NCBI GenBank assembly: GCA_015351705.1
Contig: JADIIM010000037.1
Location: 1 to 64,000 of the forward strand
DNA length: 64,000 bases
From: Aeromicrobium sp.
GTDB lineage: Bacteria; Actinomycetota; Coriobacteriia; Anaerosomatales; Anaerosomataceae
Direction: 5' to 3'
Notes under the pieces: generated by a model
Seen by the model: only the letters and a program-made list of their open reading frames with translations
Database searches by the model: none
What the model was told of the DNA's origin: nothing
Shown here: positions 22,872 through 62,881 of the stretch, one piece after another
Layout of the letters: each line of letters starts with the position of its first letter
Numbering within the stretch: the stretch's first letter is position 1
Translations under genes and position numbers: made by a program

Positions 22872-24872
22872 GTGATACTCACCGTAGACCACATCACCAA
22901 GAGCATCGGAGAGCGCGTCTTGTTCGCGGACGCGTTCCTTCGCGTGGGCGCGCGGGACCGGATCGCACTCGTCGGCGCCAACGGCACCGGCAAGACCACC
23001 CTCCTGGAGATCATCGTGGGGGAACAGGAGCCGGATGCCGGGTCGGTCATCAGGGCCAAGGACGCTACGGTCGGCTACCTCCGCCAGGAAGCCATCGAGA
23101 TGCGTGGCCGCCCGGTCCTCGACGAAGTCATCACCGAGGCCTCGGGCGTGCGCGGCCTCGAGCACCGCATGTCGATGCTCGAGAGCGAGATGGAGTCGGC
23201 CGAGGGCTCCTCGCTCGAGGAGCTGCTTGAGGAGTACGGCAGGCTCCGTGAGCGGTACGAGCATCTCGGCGGCTACACGGTGGAGGCGGAGGCGCGCGCT
23301 GTACTGACCGGCCTCGGCTTCCGTGAGCGGGACATGGCGCGCGACGTCGCCGAGCTCTCCGGGGGGTGGCTCATGCGTGTCGCGCTCGCCAAGCTGCTAC
23401 TGGCCGAGCCGGACGTCTTGCTGCTCGACGAGCCCACCAACCACCTGGACCTCGAGAGCGTGACGTGGCTCGAGGGCTTCCTGCGCGGCTATGAGGGTGC
23501 GGTGCTGCTTGTCAGCCACGACCGCTCGTTCATGGATGCGCTCGTCACACGTGTGGCCGAGCTCGATCTGCGCAAGCTCACCGTCTTCCATGGCACCTAC
23601 TCGGCGTACGTCCAGACCAAAGCGGCGGACCGCGAGCGCACCATCGCCGCCCACAAGCAGCAGGAGCGTTACATCGCCCAGCAGGAGCGCTTCATCGAGC
23701 GGTTCCGGTACAAGAACACCAAGGCCAAGGCGGTCCAGAGCCGGATCAAGGCGCTCGACCGTCTTGAGAGGATAGAAGTCCCCGAGGAGCGTCAGTCCGT
23801 CAGGTTCTCGTTTCCCCAGCCGCAGCGCACCGGCGCTGAGGTGATCTCGCTTGCGGGCGTGAGCAAGGCGTACGGGGACAACGTGGTCTACGACAGCCTT
23901 GATGTCACGCTTTACCGGGGTGACAAGGTGGCGCTCGTCGGACCGAACGGTGCAGGTAAGTCAACACTCCTGCGGATGCTGGCCGGCGTGCTCGACGCCG
24001 ATGCAGGCGTGCGACGGCTCGGCGAGCACGTAAGCGTGGCCTACTTCGCGCAGCATCAGCTTGAGGCGCTGAACGGACGCAACACGGTGCTCGCCGAGCT
24101 GATGGGCGCGGCACCCGGCTGGACCCAGGAGCAGGCGCGCACGCTGCTCGGAACGTTCCTCTTCCACGGGGACGACGTCACGAAGCTGGTGCGGGTCTTG
24201 TCGGGAGGGGAGCGTGCACGTCTGGCGCTCGCCAAGATGCTGGTCAGGCCGGCATCGCTGCTGTGCCTGGACGAGCCCACCAACCACCTCGATATCCAGG
24301 GACGCGACGTGTTGGAGGCCGCGCTCAGGCAGTATACGGGGACGATCGCGCTCATCACCCACGACCGTCATCTCATCAGGGCGGTGGCCAGCCGGATCGC
24401 CGACGTGCGCGACGGCACCGTGCGGATATACGAGGGCGACTACGACTACTACTCGGAGAAGCGTGCGGCGCTCGAGGCGGGCGGAGCGCCGTCACCGGAC
24501 GGCGGGCGCGCCCATCCGGGGCTTCGTGCGGCCGCAGGCGAATCACCGGTCACGCCGGACTCCGCGCGCGGGCGCAAGTCGAAGAGCGAGCGTCGTGCCG
24601 AGGCTGAGGAGCGTAACCGTCTGTACCGGGGGACGAAAGACGACAAGCGGAGGCGCGGGGCCATCGAACGTGAGCTTGGCACGGTCCAGCGGCGGCATGA
24701 CGCGCTTCTGGAGGTGCTTGCGGACACCGGACTCTACCAGGACAAGGAGCGGTTCTCGGAGACGATGGGGGAGTACACTGGGGTGAAGCGCAGGCTTGAA
24801 GAGCTCGAACGCGAGTGGCTGGAGGTGTCGGAGCGGATCGAGTGTGCCGAGGCCGATCCGGGAACATTGTAA
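22872..24872 (+). CDS. ABC-F family ATPase
   Basis: 666 residues with two ATP-binding cassettes and no membrane segments. First cassette: Walker [10 protein letters not shown], signature [17 protein letters not shown], Walker [12 protein letters not shown]. Second: [36 protein letters not shown]. Between them is the basic ABC-F linker ([20 protein letters not shown], then [16 protein letters not shown]). A charged coiled-coil-like C-terminal domain follows a Pro/Gly-rich spacer. ABC-F proteins act on ribosomes (translation factor or antibiotic protection). GTG start without a ribosome binding site. The Rex-like operator of the nuo operon overlaps the stop codon. Confidence 0.93.
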
Positions 24873-24884
24873 CAATGTTTACAA
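24867..24884 (+). promoter_or_regulatory. Rex-like redox operator at the nuo promoter
   Basis: TTGTAAC-AATG-TTTACAA, an 18-base imperfect palindrome with TTGT/ACAA ends spaced as in the Rex consensus TTGTGAA-N4-TTCACAA (11 of 14 defined positions). It covers the -35 box of the nuo promoter and the stop codon of the ABC-F gene. A bound protein would block RNA polymerase. Confidence 0.5.
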
Positions 24885-36270: not shown

Positions 36271-36288
36271 TTGTGAACCCATTCACGC
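36271..36288 (+). promoter_or_regulatory. Rex/Crp-like operator downstream of nuoN
   Basis: TTGTGAA-CCCA-TTCACGC agrees with the Rex consensus TTGTGAA-N4-TTCACAA at 12 of 14 positions, and with the Crp core TGTGA-N6-TCACA at 9 of 10. It overlaps a second palindrome, TTCACGC-TT-GCGTGAA (36282-36297), so three GTGAA/TTCAC half-sites stand in a row ahead of a promoter. Confidence 0.5.
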
Positions 36289-36317
36289 TTGCGTGAACGA
36301 TTCTGATGCTCTACACT
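36289..36317 (+). promoter_or_regulatory. Promoter candidate between nuoN and the FlgM-like gene
   Basis: TTGCGT, 17 bp, TACACT. The -35 box lies inside the palindrome TTCACGC-TT-GCGTGAA. The predicted start is near 36324. The 311-base gap 36232-36542 holds this promoter, the operators and the terminator hairpin; no coding sequence is convincing there. Confidence 0.5.
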
Positions 36318-36323
36318 CTGCTT

Positions 36324-36390
36324 GTGTCGCTTCGGCAACCCCTTACCCCTGAGCCTCAAGGTGCCGGCCTTGAGGCTCCCCTCTTTTCTT
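36324..36390 (+). ncRNA. Candidate short transcript (small RNA or attenuated leader)
   Basis: A roughly 67-base transcript is predicted from the promoter just upstream to the terminator hairpin. No reading frame or known RNA family is recognised in it. It may equally be only the leader of the downstream gene. Confidence 0.25.
36351..36390 (+). terminator. Intrinsic terminator downstream of nuoN
   Basis: GAGCCTCAAG and CTTGAGGCTC form a perfect 10-bp stem around an 8-base loop, followed by CCCTCTTTTCTT, the only hairpin in the window with a real T-rich tail. It can end nuo read-through and the short transcript started at about 36324. Confidence 0.85.
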
Positions 36391-36529
36391 GGGCACCGTT
36401 CCCCCGGTGACGCGTAGGGCGTGTGCCGTACATCCGGGGATTCCGACCGTTGGGCCGAGGCGAGACCGTCGAGGTGCCGTTCATCTCCCTGGTTCGAGAG
36501 CGGCTCAAGGAGTGGTCCGCCGCGGCCGA

Positions 36530-36535
36530 TAGTCT
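36530..36535 (+). promoter_or_regulatory. -10 box of the FlgM-like gene, probably leaderless
   Basis: TAGTCT ends 7 bases before the ATG, with no Shine-Dalgarno sequence, so the message may start at the start codon. No -35 box is evident. Confidence 0.4.
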
Positions 36536-36542
36536 AGGCAAC

Positions 36543-36800
36543 ATGATCATCTCAGACGAGCAGGTCCGGCGCGCTGTCGAGTACCTGCGTACACCAAATG
36601 GACATACCGGGCAGCATCAGGGCAGGGCTGCCGTCGCGGAAGGGTTGTTGCGACGCATCTCCGAGGAGCTGGACCGCCTGCCGGACGTTCGCGAGGACCG
36701 CATCCGTGAGGCCCAGGAGCGCTGCATGGCCTGCCCGCCCGACGCGACTCTCGTTGCCGAGAAGCTGATCGGGCGCGTGCTGTCCGACGCGATCCGGTAG
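36543..36800 (+). CDS. FlgM-like anti-sigma factor domain protein
   Basis: 85 residues from the ATG; the open frame runs on upstream but lacks a sensible start. The C-terminal half, LDRLPDVREDRIREAQERC followed by DATLVAEKLIGRVL, matches the sigma-28-binding helices of FlgM (LPDVREDKV...AEKLL). FlgM binds and silences FliA until export. No flagellar genes are in the window; the neighbour is a type IV pilus ATPase, so it may serve a motility or other sigma-28-type factor encoded elsewhere. Family call is by motif only. Confidence 0.6.
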   Translation: MIISDEQVRRAVEYLRTPNGHTGQHQGRAAVAEGLLRRISEELDRLPDVREDRIREAQERCMACPPDATLVAEKLIGRVLSDAIR

Positions 36801-62745: not shown

Positions 62746-62756
62746 ACGCAGAGCGA

Positions 62757-62872
62757 CTTTCTTCAGGGCGGGGTGCGATTCCCCACCGGCGGTGACAGCC
62801 CGCGAACCCCGACAGGGGCCGATCCGGTGAGATCCCGGAGCCGACAGTGACAGTCTGGATGGGAGAAGGAAG
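62757..62872 (+). promoter_or_regulatory. FMN riboswitch (RFN element)
   Basis: Conserved RFN core pieces are read in order: AGGGCGGGGTG, ATTCCCCACCGGCGGT, AGCCCGCGA, GATCCGGTGAGATCCCGGAG, CCGACAGT, AGTCTGGATGGGAGAAGGAA. The closing stem pairs CTTTCTTC with GAAGGAAG. The 3' strand of that stem overlaps the AAGGAAGGG ribosome binding site of ribD, so FMN binding probably represses translation. Confidence 0.97.
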
Positions 62873-62881
62873 GGTACGTCC

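Follow-up and report, generated by a model that had tools for sequence, protein, structure and literature searches.

The segment at positions 36271 to 36390 of the window (the whole stretch of 64,000 nucleotides that was analysed) very probably holds an autonomous gene for a small RNA (sRNA) of about 65 nt, and we consider, with a probability of roughly 0.6, that this RNA acts by pairing with the leader of formate dehydrogenase mRNAs. The initial annotation of the site had left two alternatives standing, a redox- or Crp-controlled sRNA gene of about 65-70 bases and an attenuated leader of the FlgM-like gene downstream. Sequence comparison supported the former through conservation across the order, a promoter and a terminator belonging to the RNA, a covarying 5′ hairpin and the unpaired CCCUUACCCCU between two hairpins, together with a Rex-type operator. 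What is new here is the complementarity of the linker to an element in the riboswitch leaders of formate dehydrogenase genes. The features to which the text refers are as follows.

24867..24884, no strand: second Rex-like site 159 bp ahead of nuoA, TTGTAACAATGTTTACAA, with 3 mismatches
36271..36288, no strand: Rex-type (or Crp-type) operator TTGTGAACCCATTCACGC, agreeing with TTGTGAANNNNTTCACAA at 12 of 14 fixed positions
36289..36294, plus strand: -35 box TTGCGT, read directly and compared across copies
36293..36297, no strand: third half-site, GTGAA, which overlaps the -35 box and has no partner at palindromic spacing
36312..36317, plus strand: -10 box TACACT, read directly and compared across copies
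36324..36388, plus strand: putative small RNA gene of about 65 nt, the -10 box and the terminator serving to place its two ends; no Rfam match
36326..36339, plus strand: 5′ hairpin GUCGC-UUCG-GCAAC, with one C-A mismatch here, intact and covarying in relatives
36340..36350, plus strand: C-rich linker CCCUUACCCCU, unpaired according to the fold and the comparison of copies, the proposed pairing region
36351..36388, plus strand: terminator hairpin GAGCCUCAAGGU-GCCG-GCCUUGAGGCUC with a C/U-rich tail, almost invariant
36505..36532, plus strand: sigma-28-like promoter TCAAG-N15-GCCGATAG of the FlgM-like gene, from its sequence and a scan across loci
36543..36800, plus strand: FlgM-like gene, the most frequent neighbour downstream (E 0.025 for Pfam FlgM, short of the cut-off)

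Promoter, terminator and RNA structure

Direct reading of the sequence placed the three GTGAA/TTCAC half-sites where the initial annotation had put them (GTGAA at 36273-36277, TTCAC at 36282-36286 and GTGAA at 36293-36297), and the same was true of the promoter, TTGCGT (36289-36294) and TACACT (36312-36317) separated by a spacer of 17 bases, and of the terminator, a stem of 12 pairs (36351-36378) followed by the tail CCCTCTTTTC. The -10 box and the terminator stem are 33 bases apart. A terminator scan of the site detected one terminator, compared with a mean of 0.4 in shuffled sequences, and a promoter scan listed none at the site, because its threshold is stricter. All 62 RNA copies examined were preceded by a TTG -35 box and an AT-rich -10 box at a spacing of 16-19 nt, a count that is partly by construction, since a scoring script picked the boxes by their score. 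Loss of the -10 box among relatives, which had been named beforehand as evidence against the gene, occurred in none of the 62 copies.

The 70-nt fold had a z-score of -2.66, and none of 200 shuffles was as good. The 5′ hairpin was found in two main forms, mostly with five pairs and a UUCG-type loop or with seven pairs and a GCGA/GCAA-type loop. The covariation in relatives that the initial annotation had asked about was counted on the 25 long-form copies among the 62 (18 of them distinct); two-sided changes were present in three of the seven pairs, the covariation score was reached by none of 500 shuffles, and slid versions of the helix scored far lower. RNAalifold recovered the terminator hairpin alone and was blind to the 5′ hairpin because MAFFT misaligned its two forms, and the terminator helix is uninformative on pairing because it hardly varies. 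A short coding ORF was rejected, as one-base changes in length ahead of the invariant part would break the reading frame. With its own promoter and intrinsic terminator and without coding content, the unit has the make-up of a trans-acting, base-pairing sRNA.

Distribution and autonomy of the RNA gene

The segment 36090-36560 was compared with 99 genomes, of which 60 gave matches, all of them among the 69 genomes of the order Anaerosomatales; the same query did not find the RNA in the 30 genomes that belong to other orders of this class. The RNA part itself (36326-36390) lay inside the matches of 60 of the 69 order genomes. Many of these matches spanned the RNA alone and were about 89-98% identical, compared with mostly 35-64% identity for NuoN across the order. 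A covariance model likewise placed the RNA in 60 of the 69 genomes, including 47 of the 51 near-complete ones, as a single copy except in G024 and G032; the flanking bases displayed differ between the two copies of G024 (L008, L067) and are identical for those of G032 (L063, L064), perhaps an assembly repeat. The alignment of 60 distinct copies has 76 columns, of which 34 were invariant. A scan of genome_contigs (84,980 species) with a 20-base pattern returned 46 stretches, all labelled actinobacterial, and phage-borne copies were rejected because the same kind of scan of viral_contigs gave 0 stretches. This conservation across the order is decisive for the site being real. No Rfam family matched the RNA at its gathering score, and with E up to 10 the only match was a chance lncRNA, so that a known Rfam RNA was rejected as well. 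Elsewhere in the window, at 62755-62874, an FMN riboswitch was found at 110.8 bits, above its gathering score of 66.2.

The position of the RNA, after nuoN in most genomes and ahead of a FlgM-like gene that starts 113-291 nt past the first base of the RNA part, invites two other readings. The first is the leader reading of the initial annotation, in which readthrough of the attenuator would feed flgM. In 48 of 61 loci, compared with 5 of 1220 shuffles, the RNA is followed by a sigma-28-like promoter, which would serve the FlgM-like gene, so that the RNA forms a separate unit. In G038 (L039), the RNA gene runs opposite to both nuoN and flgM, at variance with the shared orientation and transcript that a leader entails, and a recognisable flgM is missing in L031, L032, L042, L046, L050, L060 and L066. 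In addition, nuoN was unmatched in the roughly 1.5 kb read upstream in nine loci (L011, L016, L018, L022, L032, L033, L036, L064 and L066). The flgM promoter, these nine loci and the inversion in G038 remove the leader reading, which we rejected as very improbable. The second reading, that the site is a mere terminator of the nuo operon beside a chance promoter-like stretch, was rejected as more improbable still, because the RNA persists in the nine loci without a nuoN match and because a plain terminator would not keep the linker and the loop invariant. Despite its sub-cut-off Pfam score, the FlgM-like gene has this conserved promoter ahead of it and mostly precedes a gspE-type ATPase gene across the order.

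Operator and candidate regulator

The half-sites of the initial annotation are present, with two corrections to the picture: the third lacks a palindromic partner at the right spacing, and a recognisable operator, defined as one equalled by at most 5% of shuffles, was found in only 28 of 61 loci, leaving 33 of 61 without one. The distance from the operator centre to the -35 box was 9.5 bp in 8 loci and 14.5-15.5 bp in 18 loci. Exact copies of the operator palindrome, GTGAANNNNTTCAC, occurred at just two places in the 2.07 Mb genome. The palindrome near the promoter was scored against TTGTGAANNNNTTCACAA, the consensus of Streptomyces Rex as given in the part of PMC5355995 used here. Sixteen sites in the same genome matched this consensus with up to 3 mismatches, compared with 3 for the reversed control; one of them precedes nuoA and one precedes an aldehyde ferredoxin oxidoreductase-like gene, so named from its sequence. 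The genome also encodes Rex, in that three proteins scored above the cut-off for the Rex N-terminal domain (PF06971) and two of these also above the cut-off for CoA_binding (PF02629). The third of these Rex-like proteins (L001, L002 and L003) is weakly alike in the nucleotide-binding domain.

On this evidence, Rex is predicted to be the regulator of the sRNA gene, an assignment that we hold to be probable. The sites in L042, L043 and L057 match TGTGAN6TCACA, the Crp consensus, equally well, and the operator precedes the -35 box, a position that activators bind too, so that it may belong to a regulator of the Crp/Fnr family instead of Rex. We regard this as less likely, given that most sites retain the inner A and T that the Rex consensus has beside the N4, that the protein search, run for Rex domains, found Rex genes in the genome, and that the weaker site stands before nuoA, a known Rex target in Streptomyces (PMC5355995, in part).

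Rex as the predicted regulator calls to mind two known systems. According to the portions of PMC5355995 used here, Streptomyces Rex binds the nuo promoter and also half-sites, and the Rex regulon of Streptomyces avermitilis comprises the nuo, cyd and atp operons. The operator consensus and the connection with nuo are alike; the regulated unit here is a small RNA, whereas none is mentioned in those portions. RoxS, as described in the part of PMC5419742 consulted, is a C-rich sRNA that is repressed by Rex and adjusts NADH-linked metabolism. The present RNA resembles RoxS/RsaE of Bacillus subtilis and staphylococci in being C-rich, and in a Rex control that here is predicted only. It differs in having one linker in place of four C-rich regions, in an operator upstream of the -35 box, whereas that of RoxS lies just downstream of the start, and in its phylum, with both regulator and target at the stage of prediction. 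Homology to RoxS/RsaE in sequence or structure was not found, as no Rfam family matched the RNA at its gathering score. If the assignment is true, Rex-driven C-rich sRNAs would have arisen in another phylum independently of RoxS.

Proposed target in formate dehydrogenase leaders

The linker is complementary to the 8-mer GGGUAAGG, which lies between the aptamer and the terminator of formate dehydrogenase leaders carrying the molybdenum/tungsten (Moco) riboswitch RF01055. The best match to the linker complement in the same genome other than the RNA gene was TCAGGGGTAAGGG, perfect over 13 nt, and it lies in a formate dehydrogenase leader, again between the molybdenum riboswitch aptamer and the terminator. 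Counted without anchoring, GGGTAAGG was the commonest 8-mer among the 36 formate dehydrogenase leaders of the order (30 of 36), while an 8-mer from the complement of the linker was present in 1 of the 57 other Moco leaders of the order. The order genomes contained 123 Moco places, of which 93 were analysed (L206 was fetched and dropped, its contig ending after the aptamer); GGGTAAGG stood within 110 nt in 31 of these 93, and 30 of the 31 precede the frame of an oxidoreductase with a Tat signal. Outside the order, we examined 9 of 10 places in the class (one below the cut-off was dropped) and 30 more places having loci in the phylum; GGGTAAGG was found in 0 of the 9 and 0 of the 30 leaders, and in no case does a Tat-type formate dehydrogenase frame follow the leader. 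Allowing one mismatch raised the counts to 43 of 93 in the order, 1 of 9 in the class and 6 of 30 in the phylum (7 of 39 outside the order). The GGGUAAGGG element is not part of the RF01055 aptamer model, and its exact form was confined to the order among the leaders examined.

The best duplex of the linker fell on the element in all 36 leaders, on the exact form in 30 and on a variant in 6. In this test, which used the RNA of G000 for three genomes where none had been detected, 21 of the 36 leaders were equalled by no more than 5 of 100 shuffles, compared with 8 of 66 other leaders. The remaining 15 of 36 failed to beat 95% of shuffles, and the duplex was near chance in G035 (45 of 100 shuffles), G003 (23) and G036 (21). 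Ten leaders were folded and gave no consistent state of the element, the mean unpaired fraction ranging from 0.28 to 0.71. The surroundings of the element were not conserved, except for an AG directly following it, two bases past the complement, in 34 of 36 leaders; in the alignment anchored on the element, which left out two of the 36 leaders for want of a recognisable element, the conservation of the element itself is partly by construction. A base-pairing sRNA is expected to carry an unpaired seed that matches a conserved site in an mRNA; the linker appears to be such a seed, and the formate dehydrogenase leader is predicted to be the target, which we think probable.

Several controls limit this prediction. 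Among permutations of the linker, 34 of 1319 matched at least 10 leaders; the ten shown all contain the core CCTTACCC, so that for a linker of this composition chance amounts to about 3%, through the shared core. The 15-mer complement with up to 3 mismatches gave 35 sites in its own genome, the gene itself included, compared with 38 for the reversed control, and loose matches are therefore meaningless. The exact 12-mer TCAGGGGTAAGG was not enriched in 71 genomes, with 9 places outside the RNA (four formate dehydrogenase leaders and five unrelated) compared with 6 for the reversed control; nor was GGGGTAAGGG in ten genomes, with 14 outside the RNA compared with 20 for the reversed control, its 23 places in all being the RNA itself (nine), formate dehydrogenase leaders (three) and scattered positions (eleven). 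As the complement is not enriched genome-wide over the reversed control, there is no sign here of a large set of additional long-match targets. Compensatory changes between RNA and target were looked for in G035, G036, G037 and G038, and none was convincing, the seed being nearly invariant; those in G038 and G035 are suggestive at most. As to co-occurrence, the element or a one-base variant was present without a detected RNA in G048 (96% complete) and in G041 and G065 (73-74%), and the near-complete genomes G014, G051 and G062, which lack the RNA, had no element in their 1, 3 and 2 leaders, too few for a test. Because of these limits of permutation, enrichment and co-occurrence, of the pairing in cis described below, and of a control set outside the order that consisted of other leaders, the formate dehydrogenase leader is strongly predicted as the target rather than demonstrated; chance, a cis-acting element and a Crp-type regulator are the live rivals for target and regulator.

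The main alternative, less probable in our view though a serious one, is that the sRNA is real and the match to formate dehydrogenase is not its function, the RNA having other targets or a protein reading its near-invariant terminator hairpin. That hairpin is indeed invariant beyond the needs of termination, and several genomes have the RNA while the element is missing from the leaders fetched. Under the same alternative, GGGUAAGGGAG would be an element acting in cis, whether as part of the riboswitch expression platform, as an SD-like sequence serving a leader peptide or as a protein site. The extension of its conservation to the AG fits this idea, but the commonest 8-mer of the leaders is the complement of the linker. 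GGGAGGC could pair with the conserved aptamer segment GCCUCCC in 18 of 36 leaders; however, GGGUAAGG is retained where GGGAGGC is lost (GGGAGAC, GGGAGCG, GGGACA), and the UAA is not covered by any of the longest complements in cis. An ATG follows within about 25 nt of the element in 18 of the 36 leaders and is missing in the other half.

In the favoured explanation, a Rex-type repressor would hold transcription of the sRNA gene and release it at high NADH, and the linker would then pair with the conserved GGG(G)UAAGGG between the Moco riboswitch aptamer and the terminator of the formate dehydrogenase leader. Pairing would most likely reduce formate dehydrogenase expression once the NADH pool is reduced, possibly by favouring termination, by blocking the SD-like UAAGGGAG or by recruiting an RNase. 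An RNA that rises with NADH and turns down formate oxidation is suggested by analogy with RoxS, and we rate lower expression, as the direction of the effect, at even odds. More tentatively, one leader might integrate two signals, the Moco riboswitch reporting the cofactor and the Rex-controlled sRNA, paired between aptamer and terminator, reporting the NADH pool. If this two-signal reading is true, formate dehydrogenase would be made only when cofactor and electron demand coincide, in an actinobacterial order of the deep subsurface. Growth on formate, with a molybdenum formate dehydrogenase, is described for cultured members of the order (PMC9686372), and the existence of such cultures makes the question directly addressable.

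The combination of sRNA and riboswitch on one mRNA has precedents in OmrA and btuB of E. coli and in the sibling sRNAs at gonococcal gcvT (PMC11162775 and PMC13104608, each in part). The present case is like them in that an sRNA and a riboswitch would share one mRNA; it is unlike them in the Mo/W riboswitch and formate dehydrogenase concerned, in a predicted pairing site between aptamer and terminator, and in its order-wide occurrence. If true, a single leader would be the meeting point of control by sRNA and by riboswitch, an arrangement retained throughout the order. Among the papers listed by our literature searches, none showed an sRNA acting on a Moco riboswitch leader and, among the open-licence papers listed, none described an sRNA for this lineage. 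We likewise know of no report of an sRNA that acts on a leader of this riboswitch class. The analysis thus offers a specific, testable pair of sRNA and target in a lineage for which the open-licence papers listed showed no described sRNA.

Two minor observations concern GGGGTAAGGG. A stretch with GGGGTAAGGG and CTCCCAAGGAGGTG is shared by G007 and G006 (L298 at about 1500; L300 at about 1500, minus strand) at 72% identity over 96 bases and had no Rfam match; no formate dehydrogenase riboswitch leader was among the leaders fetched from these two genomes. In the genome that harbours the site described here, GGGGTAAGGG also occurs (L297, at about 1500) some 60-70 nt upstream of a gene for an ABC-type substrate-binding protein, so named from its sequence, which is a possible further target.
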